A stretch of DNA of 21,154 nucleotides from Candidatus Poribacteria bacterium. Its GTDB lineage: Bacteria; Abyssobacteria; SURF-5. Position 1 is the stretch's first letter, and each line of letters begins with the position of its first letter. The stretch lies in assembly GCA_016215705.1 (NCBI GenBank), contig JACRIR010000192.1:1-21154 (forward strand), read 5' to 3'. The notes under the pieces are model-generated. The model did not search any database and was not told where the DNA came from. It saw only the letters and a program-made list of their open reading frames with translations. A program made the translations under genes and the position numbers. Shown here one piece after another: positions 2,817 through 21,154 of the stretch.

Positions 2817-3353
2817 TCAACTCGTCTTCAGAGTCTCGACCGTTATGTTTTCGTTTGTGTAGACGCAAATAGAAGCGGCGGCGAGGAGCGATTCCTTCAC
2901 GATTTGTTCGGCTGAAAGATCAGAATGTTTCACCAGCGCTCGCGCGGCGGCCAGGGCGTATGGCCCTCCTGAGCCGATCGCGATTATGCCGTCGTCAGGC
3001 TCGACAATCTCGCCGGTGCCCGACAGCAGGAGCGAATGGGTCGAGTCGCAAATGGCCAGCAGCGCTTCAAGTTTACGCAAGTATTTGTCGGTCCGCCAAT
3101 CCTTTGCAAGCTCGACCGCTGCCCGTTGAAGATTCGACTTGTATTCGGAAAGTTTGGCGTCGAACCTTTCAAAGAGCGTGATCGCATCAGCCGCCGCTCC
3201 GGCAAAACCGGCGAGCACCTTGCCGTCAGCCAGCCGCCTTATCTTGGTTGCGTGATGTTTTACGATCGTGTTGGAAAGGGTCACCTGGCCGTCTCCGCCG
3301 AGCGCAACAAACCCTTTATGTCTCACTGAAATTACGGTCGTGCTCTTGAACAT
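2817..3353 (-). CDS. hslV: ATP-dependent protease peptidase subunit HslV (ClpQ)
   Basis: A 178-residue threonine protease that forms the double-ring chamber fed by the HslU ATPase. The catalytic threonine is T5, exposed when MFKS is removed, in STTVISVR. The Asp17 and Lys33 equivalents of the mature protein are D21 (GGDGQVT) and K37, and the IGSGGPYA loop is present, so it looks catalytically intact. Length is normal. A GGAGG site precedes the ATG by 10 nt, and xerC is 72 bp upstream on the same strand, as in the classical xerC-hslV order. No hslU follows. Confidence 0.96.
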
Positions 3354-3425
3354 TTTGGCCCATCCTCCAGGTTATAGCCACAGAGATCACCGAGAGCGCA
3401 GCACAGGCGAGAAAAGAATCTTCTT

Positions 3426-4427
3426 TCAATCCCTTTTCCCCTTTTCGCCTTTTCCTTTTTTCCCCCGGTCTCTTGGTTCTTGCTCGCTTTGTTCCTTGCG
3501 CCTTTTGCCTCCCACGTTCCGCGCATGTGGATGCGCTTGATCATAAATGGCCCGAAGTCGCTCTATGCTCACGTGTGTGTATATCTGTGTTGTCGAGAGG
3601 TTCGAATGCCCCAGAAGTTCCTGCACGTCCCGCAGGTCGGCCCCTCCATCCAGCAAATGCGTTGCGAAACTATGCCGCAGCGTATGCGGGCTGACGGAGC
3701 GCCTGAACCACAAATGTTTCGCATAGCTGGTTACGATCCTGTGAAAATCCCTCTCCTGCAGTGGATGTCCATTGTGACTCAGGAAGAGCTTCCTTTCGGA
3801 AACTCCTTTATCCAGTTGCTTCCTCGCGATCAGATATTCTCTAAGCGCGTCGACGGCATATCTACCGAGCATGGCCATCCGCTGCTTGCGGCCTTTGCCT
3901 GTGACCTTGACAGCTCCGCCTAAGAGGTCCATATCATCAAGCCTGATTCCTGCAAGTTCGGCCACACGGACGCCGGTCGAGTAGAGCGTCTCCAGTATCG
4001 CACGGTCGCGGATTCCCTCAGGGGTATCGGTTGGCGGGGATTCGAGCAACTGCTTCGTTTCGTCTACCGAAAGAAACTCCGGAAGCTGTCTCGTCAGCTT
4101 CGGAGTCGACACATCGTCGGCGGGATTGGCCTCAACGACTCCTTCACGCTGTAAGAGATTGAAAAAAGCGCGGATGGCCGATAGCTTTCTGGCAATACTC
4201 TGCTTCGAGGCGTCACCGGATTGGAGATGCGCGAGGTAAGCTCTTATTTTGAGGCGATCGATTTCGCAAACAGGAATTGCCTCGATAGGCGTGTCCGCGC
4301 CGCCGAAAAGATGCTCAGCCAGGAAAGAGAGGAATCCCCTCATATCGCTGCAATATGCCCGTTGGGTATGCTGACTCAGGTTCCGTTCGGTCTTCAGGTG
4401 TCTCTCGAAAAGCGCCAGGTAGTCCAT
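3426..4427 (-). CDS. xerC: Tyrosine recombinase XerC/XerD type
   Basis: A site-specific recombinase of the type that resolves chromosome dimers at dif. An N-terminal SAM-like core-binding domain (about 1-95) is followed by the catalytic domain with R154 (TGVRVAEL), K178 (TGKGRK), H248 and R251 (HTLRHSFATHLL), H274 (LLGHSNL) and the nucleophile Y283 (QIYTHV). The full set is present. The chosen start is the ATG at 4427 (333 aa), which fits family N-termini; a TTG at 4457 would add ten residues. After HPHARN about 28 residues of Lys/Arg/Glu-rich low complexity follow, beyond the usual family end. Position next to hslV and topA favours XerC over XerD, but the paralogue call is inference. Confidence 0.92.
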   Translation of the reverse strand: MDYLALFERHLKTERNLSQHTQRAYCSDMRGFLSFLAEHLFGGADTPIEAIPVCEIDRLKIRAYLAHLQSGDASKQSIARKLSAIRAFFNLLQREGVVEANPADDVSTPKLTRQLPEFLSVDETKQLLESPPTDTPEGIRDRAILETLYSTGVRVAELAGIRLDDMDLLGGAVKVTGKGRKQRMAMLGRYAVDALREYLIARKQLDKGVSERKLFLSHNGHPLQERDFHRIVTSYAKHLWFRRSVSPHTLRHSFATHLLDGGADLRDVQELLGHSNLSTTQIYTHVSIERLRAIYDQAHPHARNVGGKRRKEQSEQEPRDRGKKGKGEKGKRD

Positions 4428-4563
4428 CTCGGATACACTCGTGTTCAAAACAGCCAAAAGAATGCCCGTGCCATCTCAGACTTGAGTTTGTAGGTGCGTG
4501 CGCACGCTTTTGTAGGGACGCGAAAGGCGGGTGAAGGGGAATCTTACCTTTTCTGCCCGGATA

Positions 4564-6849
4564 TCAGGTTGTGACTTCGTCTTTGGCATCCCCTTCTTTA
4601 GCTTCCTCTTTGTACCCACAACCCTTTTTGGGGCATTTCAGGGTAAGCTTGCCGTCACGAGAGTATTTCTCGACAAGAAAGTTTCCGCCGCATTGCGGGC
4701 AGTCTTGCGCCCGGGGCCGATCCCAACTGGCGAACTTGCATTCCGGATAGCGGCTGCAACTGAAGAAGACCTTGCCTTTCTTCGAGCGCTTTTCGACGAC
4801 TTCACCCCCGCAGTTCGGCTCGGGACACGTGACTCCGATGCCCAAGGACATCGTCGTTTTGCACTCAGGATATTTCGTGCACGATATGAAACGCCCGGTC
4901 CGCCCGGTTCTTACCGTCATTGGGCTGCCGCATTTAGGACAGGTTTTTCCGGCCACAAGTTGCTGCGCATCATCCGGAGGCGCGCCGTCCTCTGTTTTGA
5001 CCTCTTTCGTATTGCGGCAATCGGGATAGCCGGTGCAGGCAAGAAACTTACCGAAACGTCCCCATCGGATGACCATAGGCTTGCCGCATTTGTCGCAGAC
5101 TTCGTCCGTCGGCACGCCTTCCTTCTTCACGTTGCGCATCGAATGGGCCGCCGTGGCAAGTGAATCCTCGAATGGCCCATAGAAATCATGGAGCAACTTC
5201 TGCCAGTCCACTTTGCCCTCTTCCACTTCATCCAGTTGTTCTTCCATGCGGGCGGTAAACTCGACGTCCATGATCTTCGGGAAGCTCTCAACCAGCAGCG
5301 AATTGACCGTGAAGCCAAGGTCTGTCGGCATGAGACGCCCCTTCTCTCTTTGGACATACTTGCGCTTTTGAATGGTGTCTACGATGGTCGCATACGTGCT
5401 CGGGCGTCCTATTCCTTTCTCTTCCAAAGCCTTCACAAGGGTTGCATCGGTGTAGCGCGGCGGCGGCTTTGTGAAGTGCTGCTCAGGCGTGATTCCTTTG
5501 CAGGCAAGCGCATCATTCTGGTTCAAGGGCGGAAAAGCGCCGTCTGACTCGGAACCATTGCCGTTTTCCTCTGTCTCTTCCTTATATAGAACCAGGAATC
5601 CTTGAGACTTCAATATGGAGCCGGTCGCTCTCAGCAGGTATTTTCCATTCGCATCGATATCGATCGTCGTCTGATCATAAATCGCGGGGGCCATCTGGCT
5701 GGCGAGGAACCGATTCCATATGAGAGCATACAACGCGAGGTATTCCTTCGATAGATGTGGCGTCAATCGTTCCGGAGTCCATTCCATCGAAGTGGGTCGT
5801 ATAGCTTCGTGGGCATCCTGAGCGTCACGCTTGTTCTTGAACACGTTCACGTGGTTAGGCGGATAGTATTCCTTCCCGTATTTTTGCAGAATGTACTGCA
5901 GGGCTGCCTCCTGCGCTTCCTTCGAGACGCGGACCGAGTCCGTGCGCATATACGTGATGAGGGCAACGTTACCCTCACCGGGGATTTCGATGCCTTCGTA
6001 CAAATCCTGCGCAACCTGCATCGCGCGTGTGGGCCTCAGCCTCAGTTTCTTGAAAGCCTCCTGCTGGAGCGTGCTGGTGATGAATGGAGGATATGGCCTG
6101 CGTCGGACTTCCTTTGTCTCGACGCTCGCGACGACGTATTTTGCGCGTTTGAGGTCGTCGGCGATTTTCGACGCGGATGCTCCATCGGGTATCTCCGCCT
6201 TCTCGCCTCCGATTTTCGACAGTTGCGCCTCGAAAGGCGGGTAGCCTGATTTCTCGAGCAGAGTCTTGATAGTCCAATACTCCTGGGGAACAAACTTCTT
6301 AATCTCTTCCTCCCGCTCGCAGATTATGCGCACCGCGACCGACTGCACTCGCCCTGCGCTCAGACCTCGCTTTACTTTGTTCCATAGTAAAGGACTCAGC
6401 TTATAGCCCACGAGCCGATCGAGTACGCGACGGGCCTGCTGTGCGTTCACAAGCGCCATATCAATATCGCGAGGGTTCTGAATGGCCTCGAGGATAGCGC
6501 CCTTGGTTATCTCGTTGAAGACGATGCGCCGAATCTTGCGGTTGTTGGCGACACCGATTGACTCCCTGATATGCCATCCTATGGCCTCACCTTCACGGTC
6601 GAAGTCGGATGCCAGATACACGGCCTCGGCTTCCTGCGCAAGTTTCTTCAAGGCGGTGATGATCTTCCGCTTGCCGCTCAAAACGACGTAGTGAGGCTTG
6701 AAACCGCCGTCCATGTCGACTCCAAGCTCTTTCGGAGGCAGGTCTCGAACATGCCCCATCGAAGCCTCTACGCTGTATTCTTTCCCCAGATATTTATTTA
6801 TCGTTTTCGCCTTCGCCGGCGATTCAACGACTACGAGTTTCTTCGCCAC
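4564..6849 (-). CDS. topA: DNA topoisomerase I
   Basis: A 761-residue type IA topoisomerase that relaxes negative supercoils. The Toprim domain has E9 (VVVES) and the D82/D84 pair (SDFDREGE); the active-site tyrosine is Y300 in ITYMRTDS. Four C-terminal zinc ribbons follow, with cysteines at 585/588/605/611, 637/640/657/663, 675/680/698/704 and 717/720/739/744. A short acidic-basic tail ends the protein. The start is a GTG at 6849, preceded by AAAGGAAAAG. It is separated by 3 nt from the stop of the upstream NYN gene, so the two are co-transcribed and probably translationally coupled. Confidence 0.98.
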   Translation of the reverse strand: MAKKLVVVESPAKAKTINKYLGKEYSVEASMGHVRDLPPKELGVDMDGGFKPHYVVLSGKRKIITALKKLAQEAEAVYLASDFDREGEAIGWHIRESIGVANNRKIRRIVFNEITKGAILEAIQNPRDIDMALVNAQQARRVLDRLVGYKLSPLLWNKVKRGLSAGRVQSVAVRIICEREEEIKKFVPQEYWTIKTLLEKSGYPPFEAQLSKIGGEKAEIPDGASASKIADDLKRAKYVVASVETKEVRRRPYPPFITSTLQQEAFKKLRLRPTRAMQVAQDLYEGIEIPGEGNVALITYMRTDSVRVSKEAQEAALQYILQKYGKEYYPPNHVNVFKNKRDAQDAHEAIRPTSMEWTPERLTPHLSKEYLALYALIWNRFLASQMAPAIYDQTTIDIDANGKYLLRATGSILKSQGFLVLYKEETEENGNGSESDGAFPPLNQNDALACKGITPEQHFTKPPPRYTDATLVKALEEKGIGRPSTYATIVDTIQKRKYVQREKGRLMPTDLGFTVNSLLVESFPKIMDVEFTARMEEQLDEVEEGKVDWQKLLHDFYGPFEDSLATAAHSMRNVKKEGVPTDEVCDKCGKPMVIRWGRFGKFLACTGYPDCRNTKEVKTEDGAPPDDAQQLVAGKTCPKCGSPMTVRTGRTGRFISCTKYPECKTTMSLGIGVTCPEPNCGGEVVEKRSKKGKVFFSCSRYPECKFASWDRPRAQDCPQCGGNFLVEKYSRDGKLTLKCPKKGCGYKEEAKEGDAKDEVTT

Positions 6850-7597: not shown

Positions 7598-7611
7598 TCT
7601 GCTAGAGTATG

Positions 7612-7768
7612 CGGCTTCGGGACAGGGTGGAATTCCCGACCGGCGGTGTGTTTCGCCCGGAAAGGCGGAGCGAGCCCGCGAGCGTGTCGCAGCCCGAATG
7701 ACGGCGGTGACGTGCAGACCCGGTGAGAAGCCGGGGCCGACGGCAAAAGTCCGGATGGGAGAAGGCCG
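7612..7768 (+). ncRNA. FMN riboswitch (RFN element) aptamer
   Basis: The conserved RFN blocks appear in order: TTCGGGACAGGGTGGAATTC, CCCGACCGGCGGTG, a variable helix, GAGCCCGCGAGCG, CAGCCCGAATGACGGCGG, CAGACCCGGTGAGAAGCCGG, GGCCGACGGC, AAAGTCCGGATGGGAGAAGG. Helix P1 pairs CGGCTTC (7612-7618) with 7761-7768, leaving G7765 bulged. It binds FMN and, with the terminator at 7799-7827, should switch off the rib genes when FMN is plentiful. Confidence 0.97.
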
Positions 7769-7798
7769 AAATAGAGACCGGAAGTGTGTCTGTTGTGT

Positions 7799-7910: not shown

Positions 7911-9014
7911 ATGCTGAGTAGCCAAAATAAATACATGGAGCGTGCGCTCGAATTGGCGCAAATGGGCAGGGGGTCCACCAGCCCTAACCCCATGGTGGGC
8001 GCAGTCATCGTCAAGGATGACCGCATCATTGCCGAGGGGTTCCATAAGCGATTCGGCGGCCCTCACGCTGAGGTTGCAGCGCTTGAAAACGCAAGCGAAT
8101 GTGTGCGTGACTCGACGGTGTACGTGACGCTTGAACCATGCTGCCATCATGGGAAGACTCCTCCATGCACTCGTGCCCTGATTAGCGCCGGCGTAAAGAA
8201 GGTCGTTATGGCCATGGAAGACCCCAACCCTCGGGTTGCCGGAAAAGGCCGTGACGAACTGGAACAGGCGGGAATCGAGGTCGAGTCGGGGCTGCTTGCA
8301 GAGGCCGCGAAGAAACTCAATGAAGCTTTCGTGAAGTACATAACTACGGGACTGCCTTTCTTTATTGCCAAAGCGGCAATGACGCTCGACGGGAAGATTG
8401 CCACACGCGAGAAGGATTCGCGTTGGATAACCGGCCAGGAGGCGCGACAGTATGTGCACTGGCTGCGAGCCGGGGTTGATGCGGTAATGGTGGGCAGCGG
8501 TACCGTCGAGGCGGATGACCCCATGCTGACAACACGCATGGCAAATGGGGGCGGGCGGGATGCCATTAGAATCGTAGTTGACGGTGATGCGAAGGTTCCG
8601 CCTGGTAGCGCGGTACTTAACATTCAGTCTGCAGCGCCGACGCTTGTCGCAGTGAAAACGACTGCTCCGTCGGATCGTAAGTCGGATTTGCGCGCGAAAG
8701 GCGTGGAGCTAATAGAGATCGAGCCGAAAAATGACAAAATCGACCTCGTGAAATTGGCAAGCGCCCTCGCCGGACGCAATATTGCCAGCGTGCTTATTGA
8801 GGGTGGCGGGGGATTACTTGCGGCGGCCTTCGATGCCGGAATAGTGGACAAGGCTTTGTTTTTCATAGCGCCCAAAATCCTGGGCGGGAAAGACGCGCCC
8901 ACGCCGGTCGAAGGGCGCGGCGTCGCAAGAGTGGCCGACGCAACCAGTCTGAAGAATATATCAATAAGTCGAGTGGGAGACGACATCCTCATCGAAGGAT
9001 ACGTGGGCAAGTGA
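7911..9014 (+). CDS. ribD: Bifunctional riboflavin deaminase/reductase RibD
   Basis: A 367-residue two-domain enzyme catalysing the second and third steps of the GTP branch: deamination of the pyrimidine, then NADPH-dependent reduction of the ribosyl side chain. The deaminase zinc site is H52 and E54 (PHAEVAAL) with C77 and C86 (LEPCCHHGKTPPC). The reductase domain starts near 148 (PFFIAKAAMTLDGKIA) with SRWITG and the GGGGLL cofactor loop. First gene after the FMN riboswitch. The ATG at 7911 fits family N-termini but has no good Shine-Dalgarno; the ATG at 7935 would be an alternative. One base separates its stop from ribE. Confidence 0.97.
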   Translation: MLSSQNKYMERALELAQMGRGSTSPNPMVGAVIVKDDRIIAEGFHKRFGGPHAEVAALENASECVRDSTVYVTLEPCCHHGKTPPCTRALISAGVKKVVMAMEDPNPRVAGKGRDELEQAGIEVESGLLAEAAKKLNEAFVKYITTGLPFFIAKAAMTLDGKIATREKDSRWITGQEARQYVHWLRAGVDAVMVGSGTVEADDPMLTTRMANGGGRDAIRIVVDGDAKVPPGSAVLNIQSAAPTLVAVKTTAPSDRKSDLRAKGVELIEIEPKNDKIDLVKLASALAGRNIASVLIEGGGGLLAAAFDAGIVDKALFFIAPKILGGKDAPTPVEGRGVARVADATSLKNISISRVGDDILIEGYVGK

Positions 9015-9015
9015 C

Positions 9016-9651
9016 ATGTTTACGGGCATCATACAGGAAATAGGGACGATTCAGCGGATTTCGCCCGGCCAGTCATGCAAAATCATGATCCGGGCAAAGA
9101 GAATCCTGAAAGACGTCGCGATTGGCGACAGTGTAAGCGTGGACGGGGCGTGCCTCACAGTCGCGACTTTCGACAAAGCCGGCTTTCAGGTCGATGCAAT
9201 GCCGGAAACGATCGAGAGGACAACACTCAAGTATCTCAAAGTCGGCAGCCGGGTAAACATGGAAGCCTCGCTCAAGCTTGGAGACAAAATGGGGGGCCAT
9301 TGGGTAACCGGTCATGTCGACGGCACAGGCAAGATTCTGAATACCGAGAAAGCCGGGAACTCGATCATTTATGAGATATCAATCTCAAGAGAGCTTTCGG
9401 AATATCTGGTTCCGAAAGGTTCAGTGGCGGTGGACGGCATCAGCCTTACTATTATCGAATGCGGGGAAGCCGCGTTCAGTATCGGTCTGATTCCGCACAC
9501 GTTGCAGAATACGACGCTTGTCGAGAAGGGCATCGGCGATCATGTGAACCTCGAGACCGATGTCATCGGCAAATATGTGCGGAGACACTTAAAAGGCTCC
9601 TCCGACGGAAGCGTCACCGAGAAACTCTTGCGCGAATCGGGTTTCATCTGA
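9016..9651 (+). CDS. ribE: Riboflavin synthase, alpha subunit
   Basis: A 211-residue enzyme that converts two molecules of 6,7-dimethyl-8-ribityllumazine to riboflavin and a pyrimidinedione. The internal duplication is clear: MFTGII, GDSVSVDGACLTV and MPETIERTTL in the first barrel, then GGHWVTGHVDG, GSVAVDGISLTI and IPHTLQNTTL in the second, ending with NLETDVIGKYV and a trimerisation helix. It starts 1 nt after the ribD stop, so translational coupling is likely. Confidence 0.97.
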   Translation: MFTGIIQEIGTIQRISPGQSCKIMIRAKRILKDVAIGDSVSVDGACLTVATFDKAGFQVDAMPETIERTTLKYLKVGSRVNMEASLKLGDKMGGHWVTGHVDGTGKILNTEKAGNSIIYEISISRELSEYLVPKGSVAVDGISLTIIECGEAAFSIGLIPHTLQNTTLVEKGIGDHVNLETDVIGKYVRRHLKGSSDGSVTEKLLRESGFI

Positions 9652-9654
9652 TGT

Positions 9655-9714
9655 GAAATGATATCCGCAAATGAATGCGGATTTCTCGTAGGGACGGATC
9701 GAGAACCGCCCCTG
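9655..9714. repeat. Hairpin and imperfect palindrome between ribE and ribBA
   Basis: First a hairpin, ATCCGCA (9663-9669) / TGCGGAT (9676-9682), extended by GAAAT / ATTTC across an internal loop. Then an imperfect palindrome at 9690-9713 with arms AGGGACGG and CCGCCCCT. Its edge GTAGGGACG also occurs at 4512-4520. It may be a decayed dispersed palindrome, or a partial attenuator between ribE and ribBA. Confidence 0.45.
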
Positions 9715-9788
9715 TAAAAGACAAATCATGACGGAAATTCACAGTTTCAAATGTGTGCAGTACAGTTTGTGTCAGTAAGGAGGACCAT

Positions 9789-10985
9789 ATGTTTAGTCCA
9801 ATCCCTGAAATCCTGGACGAAGTAAGAGCGGGACGAATGATAATCCTCGTTGATAACGAGGATCGTGAAAACGAAGGCGACCTCATGATTGCGGCCGAAA
9901 AGGCAACGCCTGAGGGCATTAATTTTATGGCGAAGTACGGCAGGGGGCTTATTTGCCTGGCGCTGACCGGCCAAAGATGCGATGAGCTCAAATTGCCAAT
10001 GATGGTCTCAAAGAACAATTCCCGCTTCGAAACCGCATTCACGATTTCCATTGAAGCGAAAAGAAACGTTACAACGGGCATCTCTGCCGCCGACAGAGCG
10101 ACGACCATACTGACTGCGATAGACGCTGCCAAAGGAGCGGATGACATTGTCGCCCCGGGTCATGTGTTTCCCTTGCGCGCGCGCGCGGGAGGCGTTCTCG
10201 TCAGGGCGGGGCAGACTGAGGGTTCCGTTGACCTTGCGCGTCTGGCGGGATTATATCCCGCAGGCGTGATTTGCGAGGTAATGAAAGACGACGGCGCCAT
10301 GGCGCGTGTGCCCGACCTGATACAGTTCTCCAAACAACATGGCACGAAACTGTGTTCGATTGAAGACCTAATCAAGTACCGGCGATTGACCGAGAGACTG
10401 GTCCAGCGGACGGTAACTACGAAGATTCCAACTCCATACGGCGAATTTCTGCTCCATGTTTATGAGACATCTGTGGACAATTGGCACCATCTCGCATTTG
10501 TGAAAGGTGACGTCACGGGGCGCAAGGGGGTTCTTGTTCGCGTTCACTCGGAATGTCTGACCGGCGACGTGTTCGGCTCGAAACGATGCGATTGCGGCGC
10601 GCAACTCCATAAGGCGCTCCAGATGATAGAGAGGGAAGGCACGGGAGTTCTGCTCTACATGAGACAGGAAGGCAGAGGGATCGGCCTCCATAACAAACTG
10701 CGCGCCTATGCGCTTCAGGATCAGGGACTCGATACGGTCGAGGCGAACGAGAGACTCGGCTTCAAGCCCGACCTGCGCGACTATGGCATCGGCGCTCAGA
10801 TTCTTTCTGATCTGGGCCTGACCGAGATAAGGCTCATGACGAACAATCCGCGCAAGATTGTCGGAATCGACGGGTTCAACCTCAGAGTCGTCGAAAGGAT
10901 TCCGATTGAGATTACGCCAACCGTGGAGAACGTGAACTATCTCGAAACGAAGCGCCAGAAGCTTGGGCACATGCTGAATCTGTAG
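9789..10985 (+). CDS. ribBA: Bifunctional DHBP synthase / GTP cyclohydrolase II
   Basis: A 398-residue fusion. The N-terminal domain makes 3,4-dihydroxy-2-butanone 4-phosphate from ribulose 5-phosphate: [10 protein letters not shown] (22-31), TTGISAADR (95-103), PGHVFPLR (123-130), CEV with E163. The C-terminal domain opens the GTP ring: zinc cysteines C256, C267 and C269 ([17 protein letters not shown]), [26 protein letters not shown]. The ATG at 9789 is chosen for its AAGGAGGA site; an in-frame ATG at 9753 lacks one. The metal-binding His of the usual GHTEA motif is Gln142 here (AGQTEG). Confidence 0.97.
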
Positions 10986-11073
10986 TCCCTTGGAATAGAT
11001 TAGTCATCTGGCGCAGGATGACAAATGGATTGCTCAGGGAAGAATCGAGCGCACGACGGAAGGAGAGAGGCCA

Positions 11074-11538
11074 ATGCCGAAAGTGTTTGAAGGCCAGTTA
11101 ATAGCAAAAGGCAAGAAATTTGGAATCGTCGCTTCACGTTTCAATGAGTTCATCACGAACAAGTTGCTCGAAGGGGCGCTCGACGCCCTCAAGCGCCACG
11201 GCGCCAAAGACGAAGAAATAGAGATTGCGTGGGTTCCCGGTTCGTTTGAAATCCCATATGCCGCCCAAAGAATGGCCGAGGGAAAGAAATACGATGCGGT
11301 CATTTGCATCGGGGCCGTCATCCGAGGCTCGACTCCGCACTTCGAGTATATCGCCAGCGAGGTAACCAAGGGAATTGCACAAACGGGGTTGAAGACGGGC
11401 GTGCCCGTCATCTACGGGGTCATAACGCCGGATACACTCGAGCAAGCGATAGAGCGGGCGGGCACAAAAGCGGGCAACAAAGGGTTTCAGGCCGCCATGT
11501 CTGCCATCGAGATGGTAAACCTGTTTGATAAGATTTGA
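11074..11538 (+). CDS. ribH: 6,7-dimethyl-8-ribityllumazine synthase
   Basis: A 154-residue lumazine synthase that condenses the pyrimidine from the GTP branch with the four-carbon phosphate from RibBA and feeds RibE. Motifs: SRFNEFIT substrate loop (21-28), VPGSFEIP (54-61), [13 protein letters not shown] with catalytic H89, and [16 protein letters not shown]. Normal length; it should assemble into pentamers or a 60-mer shell. AAGGAGAGAGG precedes the ATG. The 88-bp gap after ribBA shows no terminator. Confidence 0.97.
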
Positions 11539-11550
11539 GGAAATGCCGTA

Positions 11551-11994
11551 ATGGGTTCAAGGCGCAAGGGGCGCGAAAAGGCGCTTCAAATACTTTTTCA
11601 GCTCGATTTCAAGAACGATGACATCGAGGCGGTATGCAATGACTTTTGGAAACGGCAGCCGACCAGCCCGATAGTGCAGGAGTTCGCCGAGAAACTTGTA
11701 AGGGGGACGGTCGCAAATCGCGAGAGCATTGACCAGATGATTGTCTTAACCGTCGAGAACTGGAGCATGGACCGACTGGCGTCCGTCGACAAGGCGATAT
11801 TGCGCTTCGCCACATATGAGCTCATGTACATGCCTGACGTGCCGCCGAAGGTTACGATAAACGAGGCCGTTGAGGTTGCCAAGTCATATGGCACGGATGA
11901 GTCGGGTCGGTTCATTAATGGAGTCCTCGACAAAATCCGCGAAAAAATAGGCAAATCGACAGCTTCCCCTCTTCCCGAAACCGGAGAGCGCTAA
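11551..11994 (+). CDS. nusB: Transcription antitermination factor NusB
   Basis: A 147-residue all-helical protein that binds boxA RNA with NusE (S10) and promotes antitermination of rRNA operons. Motifs: [16 protein letters not shown] at the N-terminus, [32 protein letters not shown] and [32 protein letters not shown]. It starts 12 nt after ribH. ribH-nusB is a very common bacterial pair and nusB is probably co-transcribed with the rib genes here. The last dozen residues ([12 protein letters not shown]) are a non-conserved tail. Confidence 0.96.
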
Positions 11995-18339: not shown

Positions 18340-18505
18340 CTATTTGTATTTTACCATGAGCCCAAAGCGTTCGCAAATAATTGTGGCCCATGCTATCTGA
18401 ATCCTATCCCTGATTGTAAGCAGTGATCAGCATTTCGAGTAGGAGAATCTTAAGGAGAGAGAGCACTTGGGAATTACAGGCGCCAAAAGTGGAAGGAGTG
18501 CTCAT

Positions 18506-19318
18506 ATGCTGCGGGTTGCTTTAGCCACTGCACTTTTGCTCGGACTGTGCTTTGTTTATTGCGGTGCGACATACGCGGAAGAATCAGGGTCAAGCGCAGG
18601 AGTCGAAGAGGACATCTCTCCTCCCTCTGAAAATAAGACACCCTTTGGCCCGGCAATAGGTGAAGATGCCATTACGGAGGGTGTGCCGGACTCAATTGAA
18701 AAACTTTTCTCAAGCAACCTTATTCAAGTATACCGTAGTTGTTCTACCGTGTTCGTGGGCAAAGTGGTAAATTCTCGAGCTGAAGAACCTCGCAGAAACG
18801 GAATTATCTATACAGAGTATGCTTTTTCCGTATTAGAGTATTTGAAAGGCGATACCGGCAAAAAGACCATATTGCTCAGGAACCTTGGAGGAGAAATCCC
18901 TGAGCTAAAACGAGGAATGGCCTCTGCCTTCTCATTCAAATTGGAGGTTGGAAAGACATACCTCGTTTTCTTGCGGCCAAATTATGAGCGCTATGTGCTT
19001 CCGATTGTACGAGTATTCTCCGTTCTGAATGCAGGGGAAAAGATTGCGGACGAAAAAGGCAGGGTTCTTCTTGACACTTATCTGAACGGGGAAACCATTC
19101 AGTCCGTGGAATCACTGTATACACCACTGATCTATGGTTACCGCGGAGTTGATGGTCGCGTTCCCCCTCCCATGCCAATTAGTGAGCCCGATAGTGTATC
19201 CATCAACGCCGTCATCGAGAGTGGAGAAAGTGTTGCAACGAGATATGGGGAAAGAGCGAAACGCCCGTACTTGAAACTGGAAACGCTGAAGGCATTCCTT
19301 GAGAAGAGCCTCAGATAA
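18506..19318 (+). CDS. Secreted protein with TIMP/NTR-like sequence pattern
   Basis: A 270-residue exported protein. The signal peptide is MLRVALATALLLGLCFVYCG with cleavage likely after ATYA (residue 24). A low-complexity acidic linker follows, then a core near 70-160: 'VYRSCSTVFVGKVV', 'YTEYAFSVLEYLKGD', 'NLGGEIP', 'FKLEVGKTYLVFL'. This succession recalls the OB-like NTR fold of TIMPs, but the TIMP N-terminal Cys-x-Cys is missing and only C79 remains in the mature protein. The ATG at 18506 is chosen for AAGGAG at 7 nt and the tidy signal peptide; a TTG at 18467, also with AAGGAG, would add 13 residues. A metalloprotease gene follows after 15 nt. Confidence 0.75.
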   Translation: MLRVALATALLLGLCFVYCGATYAEESGSSAGVEEDISPPSENKTPFGPAIGEDAITEGVPDSIEKLFSSNLIQVYRSCSTVFVGKVVNSRAEEPRRNGIIYTEYAFSVLEYLKGDTGKKTILLRNLGGEIPELKRGMASAFSFKLEVGKTYLVFLRPNYERYVLPIVRVFSVLNAGEKIADEKGRVLLDTYLNGETIQSVESLYTPLIYGYRGVDGRVPPPMPISEPDSVSINAVIESGESVATRYGERAKRPYLKLETLKAFLEKSLR

Positions 19319-19333
19319 TCTGAGAGCGGAGAT

Positions 19334-21154
19334 ATGAGAAAATCTACCCATCTCTACACGGTATTGGTAGCTAGCGCAACAATCTTACTCTCCATCTTGG
19401 ACACTGCCCATGCCGACTTGGTTGGACACGGCTGGATAGAACAAAGAGAGATATACTATTCTTACCTTCCCGACGCAAACCATTGGCAATGTTTCTTGGA
19501 CAGCAGTGCTGCATGGAATACCGTCGTTGATGATAATCCATCCGGCACTTACAGTGCCAATGATTGGCTGATTGGATACTATACGAGTGGAGGAAACCCG
19601 ATTCGCGATAGGCTCCCTTCGCCCAACAATGGCGACTTTGAGACCGGCGTATTGACAAGCACGCAAATGGGTGATCGCGGATATGATTCATGGACAGATC
19701 TTGGGGCAAATGGCATCACCTACTATTGGTACGCATGGTGGGGCATCTTTTCAAATCGAATACAGGAAGCAGATGCTTTCGTTAATCCTGATATTGCGGA
19801 TGATCCGGCACAGCACAGGAAGACCTTAACCCATGAGTTTGGACATGCATTAGGCCTCAATCATGAGGAGCGCTATTTCGAGCTGATGTACCCGGGAACC
19901 TACCAACAACCCCCCAACTACGCATCGGTGTGGTATAACCGCCTCGTCGACATATATTGGGCAAGGAACAATCTTACATGGGTTAATGCGGAGGTTGGCG
20001 AAACTGTATGGGTGTTGGAGAATTGGGCCGATATGGCCGTATGGTCGCAAACGCATAGCAATAGCGGAAGCGATGGTAGTCTCGTGATGACTAATGTGTC
20101 GCCGACCGTCGTAAATGCTGGTGGCTCAATAACGATAGAACACATTCACGTCGAGAATCGAGGGAATGTTGGTGCGACAAACGTCACCGTTCGGTTCTAT
20201 CTATCCGAAAATGACATCATATCCTCCTCAGACTACGAGATCGGCTCGATTCATTGGGATAACTTTGCCGCTAGTAGCTTCTGGGCAAACGGTAGCGTAA
20301 CCTTTACGCTACCAACGGGCATTCCATCGGGGACATACTACGTTGGCTTGATTGTTGAAACCAATAGTTCAGAAAGGTCCACCGCCAACAATGCAGCCAT
20401 TCTAATGGATGGATGGGCAAACGATTTTTCAGAAAGGACTGTCAGAGTTTGTACGGTTGAAGTTTGTGACGGAGTCGATAACGACTGTGACGGATTTACA
20501 GATGAAGGCGGGAACAGTCTTTGCAGCGACAGCACATACTGCAATGGTACAGAAATATGTGCCGGTTCGTCAGGTTGTCAAGCAGGGACTCCACCAAACT
20601 GCAATGACGGGATAAGCTGCACCACGGATAGCTGCAATGAGGCGGCTGACAGATGCGATCATACAACAAACAATGGAGTCTGCAGCGACGGGCAATACTG
20701 CAATGGCACGGAATACTGTGATGCGTCATATGGATGCCGGACAGGAACCCCGCCAAACTGCAACGATGGGATAAGCTGCACTACGGATAGCTGTAATGAA
20801 TCTGCTGACAGTTGTGACCATACACCAAACAACGGGGTCTGCAGCGACGGACAATACTGCAACGGTACCGAGTATTGCGATGCCTCGTACGGTTGCCGGA
20901 CGGGGACCTCGCCGAACTGTAATGACGGCATAAGTTGTACTGCAGATAGCTGCAACGAGTCTGCCGACGGGTGTGACCACACACCAAACAATGCTGTCTG
21001 CAATGACGGTCAATATTGCAACGGCGTAGAGTATTGCGATGCGTCTGTGGGTTGCCAGGCAGGCGCGTCGCCAAATTGCAGCGACCCAGACCCCTGCACA
21101 TCTGATATTTGCGACGAATCTGTCGATACGTGTCTGCACTTGCCGGGAGGTCCG
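19334..21154 (+). CDS. Secreted matrixin-like zinc metalloprotease with Cys-rich repeats, partial
   Basis: An open frame of 607 codons from the ATG to the window edge without a stop. A signal peptide (MRKSTHLYTVLVASATILLS, to about 27) precedes a metzincin domain with zinc site H167-E-F-G-H171-A-L-G-L-N-H177 and a Met-turn M185 (LMYPG). A CARDB-type beta-sandwich spans about 255-360 (ENRGNVGATNVTVRFYLSEN). EVCDGVDNDCDGFTDE (376-391) is the MopE-type metal-binding motif. Four cysteine-rich repeats of 52-53 residues follow, like Dictyostelium-type repeats. No pro-domain cysteine switch is evident. It probably acts outside the cell, with the C-terminal part for adhesion or anchoring. Co-transcribed with the gene 15 nt upstream; Shine-Dalgarno weak. 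Confidence 0.9.
   Translation, partial: MRKSTHLYTVLVASATILLSILDTAHADLVGHGWIEQREIYYSYLPDANHWQCFLDSSAAWNTVVDDNPSGTYSANDWLIGYYTSGGNPIRDRLPSPNNGDFETGVLTSTQMGDRGYDSWTDLGANGITYYWYAWWGIFSNRIQEADAFVNPDIADDPAQHRKTLTHEFGHALGLNHEERYFELMYPGTYQQPPNYASVWYNRLVDIYWARNNLTWVNAEVGETVWVLENWADMAVWSQTHSNSGSDGSLVMTNVSPTVVNAGGSITIEHIHVENRGNVGATNVTVRFYLSENDIISSSDYEIGSIHWDNFAASSFWANGSVTFTLPTGIPSGTYYVGLIVETNSSERSTANNAAILMDGWANDFSERTVRVCTVEVCDGVDNDCDGFTDEGGNSLCSDSTYCNGTEICAGSSGCQAGTPPNCNDGISCTTDSCNEAADRCDHTTNNGVCSDGQYCNGTEYCDASYGCRTGTPPNCNDGISCTTDSCNESADSCDHTPNNGVCSDGQYCNGTEYCDASYGCRTGTSPNCNDGISCTADSCNESADGCDHTPNNAVCNDGQYCNGVEYCDASVGCQAGASPNCSDPDPCTSDICDESVDTCLHLPGGP
20513..21145 (+). repeat. Four tandem 156-159 bp repeats inside the metalloprotease gene
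   Basis: Units begin at 20513 (156 bp), 20669, 20828 and 20987 (159 bp each). Each encodes the pattern NNGVCSDGQYCNGTEYCDAS, then YGCRTGTPPNCNDGISCTTD and SCNESADSCDHTP, with nine cysteines in fixed places. Units 2 and 3 are nearly identical in protein; unit 4 diverges toward its end (CSDPDPCTSDICDES). More units may follow past the window edge. Confidence 0.93.

Follow-up and report, generated by a model that had tools for sequence, protein, structure and literature searches.

The genes P1 and P2, located at the end of the analyzed window (the whole 21,154-nt stretch of DNA), are best read, with moderate confidence, as an operon that encodes a prodomain-less secreted matrixin (P2) together with a cognate partner of predicted NTR fold (P1), which would inhibit the protease in trans or keep it latent. 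This reading draws on the predicted fold of P1, on the recurrent association of its relatives with metzincins, and on the properties of the partner proteases, as described below.

The P1-P2 gene pair and the rest of the window

The window is an entire contig of a 5.47 Mb draft genome, and P2 is therefore incomplete. The P1 gene runs from an ATG at 18506 to a TAA at 19318 and is separated from the P2 ATG (19334) by 15 nt, in agreement with a preliminary description of two signal-peptide genes at this distance. The signal peptide of P1 is clear-cut (MLRVALATALLLGLCFVYCGATYA, cleaved before EES), and that of P2 is MRKSTHLYTVLVASATILLSILDTAHA, cleaved before DLV; signal-peptidase sites were assigned using an ad hoc rule based on the -3/-1 positions and hydrophobicity rather than SignalP. 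The features of both genes are collected in Table 1.

Table 1. Features of the P1-P2 locus (window coordinates)
Feature	Position	Strand	Basis or remark
Shine-Dalgarno-like GGAAGGAG	18491..18498	+	7 nt ahead of P1 ATG; read from sequence
P1 (270 aa), leading gene of the pair; secreted NTR (TIMP-like) protein	18506..19318	+	ORF and family profile
P1 signal peptide, aa 1-24, TYA^E, without lipobox	18506..18577	+	Sequence reading and ad hoc -3/-1 scan
P1 acidic N-terminal extension, aa 25-61	18578..18688	+	Spacing comparison with relatives; mostly low pLDDT
P1 predicted NTR/OB core, aa 62-175, with KG, GG and GKxYLVFL motifs	18689..19030	+	AlphaFold2 and Foldseek
P1 C-terminal helix, aa 258-269, common to the family	19277..19312	+	Alignment; model helix 234-245
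P2 (607 aa or more), secreted matrixin-like metzincin truncated 3' by the end of the contig	19334..21154	+	Open ORF; PF00413
P2 catalytic domain, straight after the signal peptide	19415..19978	+	No prodomain, no cysteine switch
P2 zinc site HEFGHALGLNH	19832..19864	+	Sequence
P2 Met185 of the Met-turn (ELMYPGTY)	19886..19888	+	8 residues past third His
P2 CARDB/DUF11-like domain	20087..20398	+	Pfam; both models under cut-off
P2 Cys-rich repeat, 2.9 tandem copies with a period of 159 bp	20583..21042	+	Repeat analysis

Mature P1 begins with EESGSS and contains a single cysteine (C79). The N-terminal Cys1-x-Cys3 and the conserved disulfides of TIMPs are absent from it, which agrees with the earlier remark that the first protein lacks an N-terminal Cys-x-Cys, and no lipobox was found in its sequence. 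Approximately 40 mostly acidic residues lie between the signal peptide and the domain (10 D/E versus 1 K/R in aa 25-62), and this N-terminal extension has no counterpart in the other family members examined. A long linker (aa 176-257) leads from the core to the C-terminal helix.

The stretch from the zinc site to the Met-turn of P2 reads HEFGHALGLNH-EERYFELMYP, so that both the complete HExxHxxGxxH site and the Met-turn previously noticed in the second gene are present. The eight residues from the third histidine to the methionine correspond to the Met-turn spacing of animal MMPs. The Pfam Peptidase_M10 model (PF00413) scored 23.1 bits on P2 in hmmscan (cut-off 24; E 7.4e-5) and 24.6 bits in a six-frame search, that is, at the edge of the cut-off. 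The PRCGxPD cysteine-switch prodomain of animal-type MMPs was not found in P2. The unit of the Cys-rich repeat is 53 residues long; the contig stops within this 159-bp repeat (20583-21154), which is the likely cause of the assembly break.

Two other regions of the window contain recognizable elements. An FMN riboswitch (Rfam RF00050, 89.8 bits; 7609-7771) precedes a riboflavin cluster (ribD, ribE, ribBA, ribH) and a NusB-like gene (7911-11994). On the minus strand, topA-, xerC- and hslV-like genes lie in a row (2817-6849), an order known from Firmicutes; no hslU was found beside hslV within the window.

A family of P1-like proteins and its pairing with metzincins

P1 matches no model in Pfam and NCBIfam, and its family is unnamed. 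The Pfam TIMP/NTR profiles gave no match to P1 at E<1, and the agrin NtA model matched weakly (best 0.019) in 4 of 26 family members. As a sole query, P1 retrieved no useful relative in 60 genomes, a GTDB contig scan or plasmids. The relatives were reached via a Pfam matrixin search of 290 genomes followed by reading of the genes upstream of the matches: several matrixins have a gene for a small secreted protein with the P1 pattern just upstream. These upstream partners likewise match no Pfam or NCBIfam model, and one of them aligns with P1 in a single BLASTP comparison (E 6e-9). A profile of 25 family members, from which P1 was excluded, recovers P1 with E 1.8e-13 for a database size fixed at 4500, and P1 was its only match when searched together with the window's other ORFs and 2000 shuffles.

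The family signature comprises [AS]D.[IV][VI].G.V close to the N-terminus and, further on, IyT, KG, an invariant GG, geEvvlFL and qGkf.V, after which come a variable linker and a C-terminal helix. The succession of a hydrophobic stretch, KG and GKxYLVFL that had been pointed out in the first gene is present and represents this signature. A family profile whose seeds included P1, and whose E-value for P1 is circular and therefore disregarded, matched 49 of the 290 genomes at E<0.01; no relatives were found in viral contigs or plasmids. According to record titles, the named loci belong to Myxococcota, Latescibacterota, Handelsmanbacteria, Gemmatimonadota and Acidobacteria, as well as Planctomycetota, Rokubacteria, Oligoflexales, Tectomicrobia and unplaced Deltaproteobacteria, and the NTR-metzincin pairing is spread over approximately ten bacterial phyla.

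The structure of mature P1 was predicted by AlphaFold2 using P1 and 20 relatives as input. In the resulting model the core (aa 62-175) has pLDDT values of mostly 85-94 and the C-terminal helix is also predicted, while the extension and the linker are mostly of low confidence (global pLDDT 61). The first 13 Foldseek matches of P1 in the PDB are all NTR/TIMP structures (agrin NtA, TIMP-1, -2 and -3, and the PCOLCE NTR domain; best E 7.9e-4), with agrin NtA as the best match, which bears out the earlier proposal of an NTR/TIMP fold for the first protein. The VIA rows for P1 are NTR-bearing chains (complement C345C, TIMPs, NtA) with Z of 7.4-8.7, where a value of about 8 is moderate. Potempin A is not among the best 50 Foldseek rows of P1, which is not evidence against a common fold. 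No sequence match of the family to any PDB chain was found, and a comparison of its profile with TIMP-2 gave a co-linear alignment of weak significance (E 0.07), so the fold assignment is based on structure prediction. In view of the global pLDDT and of Foldseek E-values near 1e-3, the NTR/OB fold of the P1 core has good support but falls short of proof. When a natural fusion from Archangium was modelled, its NTR half reached a pLDDT of 82-98, and its protease half matches karilysin, the top structural match, and MMPs; this model contains no confident domain docking (pTM 0.49) and is uninformative in that respect.

The association with metzincins was tallied for 64 family domains detected at E<3.3e-4 in the 290 genomes. 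A same-strand Pfam matrixin lies within 3.5 kb in 44 of them, nearly always directly downstream, compared with approximately 0.16 expected by chance. The five seeds of the profile were the window pair and four members picked for adjacency; when the seeds are left out, the tally is 39 of 59. Four other matches run off contig ends, and hand reading of most of the remaining ones revealed metzincin motifs adjoining or fused in about ten more, bringing the paired members to about 54 of about 60 testable matches. At least five members have no metzincin nearby (G049:C27, G151:C1, G145:C42, G093:C64 and G282:C35), which weighs against our preferred reading; the case of G278 is ambiguous. A separate scan of the collection with a narrower set of four members, conducted irrespective of neighbours, yielded 22 named loci. 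A metzincin is encoded directly downstream or fused in 20 of these; the exceptions are L067, which is cut by a contig end, and L071 from Tectomicrobia, which has no metzincin. The recurrent adjacency that the preliminary description had proposed to survey is thus found across genomes.

The stop and start codons of many pairs share 4 bp, which points to translational coupling. Three of the named loci are single-ORF fusions (L066 in Archangium lansinium, L080 in Planctomycetota and L082 in Rokubacteria) with an N-terminal NTR domain, which is thereby placed at the position of a prodomain. In three further fusions (G133:C18, G129:C90 and G265:C20) the metzincin precedes the NTR domain, which makes a free NTR N-terminus impossible in them, and in two genomes (G030, G177) the protease gene comes before the NTR gene. 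Both arrangements count against the preferred reading and indicate that a single mechanism may not apply to all members of the family.

Several loci deviate from the simple pair. Two tandem NTR domains are encoded after a metzincin with the zinc site HENGHAIGFPH in L090 (G030:C26) and L094 (G177:C127). In four myxobacterial loci (L062, L063, L064 and L065) two metzincin genes come one after the other behind the NTR gene, whose product may thus serve both proteases. Short ORFs of 180-226 aa in other genomes, as well as at G000:C225:21071-21154, match PF00413 weakly and by the zinc site only; they probably represent an archaemetzincin-like family rather than matrixins.

Missing prodomains and the mature N-terminus

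Eighteen distinct partner proteases were read, including that of the window, and all of them carry HExxH at aa 142-211, in a catalytic domain that begins directly behind the signal peptide. In none of the 18 is there a cysteine-switch motif or room for a prodomain, and these proteases would therefore need latency from elsewhere.

The predicted mature N-terminus lies at a similar distance from the predicted NTR core in most relatives. Exactly 21 residues separate the predicted cleavage site from the conserved Gly of betaA in 22 of 43 members, and 20-23 residues in most others; many of the remaining members have an alternative AxA site giving 20-21 residues. This Gly aligns with Ala21 of TIMP-2 in the weak co-linear profile comparison, for which the TIMP-2 letters were checked against the PDB (126/127). 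As the betaA spacing matches that of TIMP-2 in this weak alignment, the mature N-terminus of most relatives, often Thr or Ser, would fall into the register of TIMP Cys1. In TIMP complexes, it is the alpha-amine of Cys1 that binds the zinc; a TIMP-like zinc contact formed without a disulfide is plausible in most relatives. The invariant GG appears to align close to the C-connector of TIMPs, which forms the second half of their binding edge.

P1 itself is a clear outlier, with 61 residues between the cleavage site and the betaA Gly. The domain of TIMPs starts at the mature N-terminus and that of P1 does not, which weighs against the preferred reading. Because the 40-residue extension displaces the N-terminus, the contact of P1 with P2 must differ from that of TIMPs or need trimming. 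Thus, the previously suggested contact of another kind holds for P1, whose mature N-terminus is 40 residues off the domain, whereas it likely does not extend to most relatives, with their N-terminus at the Cys1 register.

According to the preferred reading, P1 would be synthesized first, exported by the same route as P2, and bound to P2 in the periplasm or during exit from it, so that as a trans inhibitor or latency factor it would keep P2 inactive until the protease is outside; we infer the binding, the inhibition and the timing of release for this pair. In most relatives, a free N-terminal Thr or Ser at the Cys1 position could chelate the catalytic zinc. The window's P1 may instead block P2 by its acidic extension in a propeptide-like manner or through some other side of the barrel, or it may do so only once it has been trimmed. 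It can be speculated further, as a tentative extension that we hold to be possible though doubtful, that the family represents widespread, so far undescribed bacterial TIMP analogues free of disulfides, which inhibit prodomain-less matrixins via a free N-terminal Thr/Ser placed in the active site at the Cys1 register, that bacteria had TIMP-matrixin pairs earlier than animals or acquired them independently, and that the window's member swapped its free N-terminus for an acidic propeptide-like tail.

Alternative roles and known systems

P1 could act mainly as a folding or secretion chaperone: following Sec export it would help the catalytic domain of P2 to fold, before being discarded. The lack of prodomains in all 18 partner proteases is in line with this role, as are the gene order and tight coupling, which suit a partner made first, and the N-terminal fusions, which would act intramolecularly. 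We nevertheless consider it unlikely, since some NTR genes come after the protease gene, a poor fit for a foldase, and since, to our knowledge, the known partners of metzincins, TIMPs included, are inhibitors rather than foldases.

The closest published pair is Mtz-Tim of Listeria monocytogenes, a secreted metzincin adjoining a protein described as TIMP-like in structure, a pair that has been reported across many Gram-positive bacteria (PMC8235301). Tim is a lipoprotein encoded after Mtz, which cleaves and releases it (PMC8235301). Because Tim is a substrate of Mtz, P1 could likewise be a substrate or co-effector of the kind proposed for Tim: P2 would cut P1, and an NTR fragment would then act extracellularly. 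That the Listeria partner is a substrate counts against the preferred reading. The flexible acidic N-terminal stretch and the low-confidence linker of P1 could be cut. However, P1 has no lipobox and hence no anchor for release, the gene order is opposite to that in Listeria, and the N-terminal extension is missing from most relatives, and this model appears improbable for the window's pair. The two systems, compared with Tim taken by description, share a metzincin gene next to a TIMP-like gene (15 nt apart in the window); P1 differs in lacking a lipobox, in being encoded first, and in the other phyla and the fusions of its family. The Listeria pair is the sole report of a bacterial TIMP-like protein that we found in the literature.

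A binding or targeting role, in which the NTR domain would bring the protease to the extracellular matrix or surface and adjacency would reflect common function rather than regulation, is more improbable still. Agrin NtA, the best Foldseek match of P1, binds laminin, and some NTR domains are fused C-terminally, as is usual for accessory domains; on the other hand, P2 already carries C-terminal CARDB-like and Cys-rich modules, and most partners are separate small proteins encoded ahead of the protease. Finally, although P1 is absent from two genomes of the same family as the source genome, a chance adjacency of two unrelated secreted proteins is highly improbable for the window's pair, and for the family it is rejected by 44 of 64 pairings against 0.16 expected, by 20 of the 22 named loci and by repeated fusions.

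Among known inhibitory systems, animal TIMPs and MMPs resemble the P1-P2 pair in the predicted NTR/TIMP fold of the partner and in the MMP-like zinc site, and most relatives also in a mature N-terminus that would lie at the TIMP Cys1 register. P1 differs in the absence of Cys1-x-Cys3, of disulfides and of a Pfam TIMP match, and in its 40-residue extension; furthermore, animal MMPs have a cysteine-switch prodomain, whereas the partner proteases of the family do not. In Tannerella forsythia, the genes of the inhibitory potempins directly precede those of KLIKK proteases (PMC7296668), and the structure of the PotA-karilysin complex is available in the PDB (8b2q). The likeness consists in a small secreted partner encoded directly before a metzincin and in karilysin ranking first among the structural matches of a family protease; unlike P1, potempins are lipoproteins, and KLIKK proteases have a conserved C-terminal domain ending in KLIKK. 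In Pseudomonas, bamI is located upstream of mep72 and co-transcribed with it; BamI, for which a partly unfolded structure is predicted, alleviates toxicity and associates with the protease in a complex (PMC4334185). The potempin and bamI loci are thus precedents for placing an inhibitor gene ahead of its metzincin. AprI inhibits its Pseudomonas metzincin via a zinc-NH2 bond (cited in PMC8235301), and its structure is not TIMP-like (PMC8235301). These two systems share with P1-P2 a metzincin with an adjacent gene for a cognate inhibitor, which in P1-P2 is the role we favor, and differ in the accessory domains of Mep72 and AprA, which are other than those of P2.

Taken with the preferred reading, these observations suggest that bacteria use a TIMP-like partner to keep matrixins devoid of a prodomain under control. 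TIMPs are generally regarded as an animal invention. A family present in approximately ten phyla and coupled or fused to prodomain-less matrixins would explain how such proteases are exported without harm to the producing cell, and it opens a way to test where the TIMP-MMP pairing came from. It also offers small single-domain, mostly cysteine-free scaffolds for the design of MMP inhibitors.
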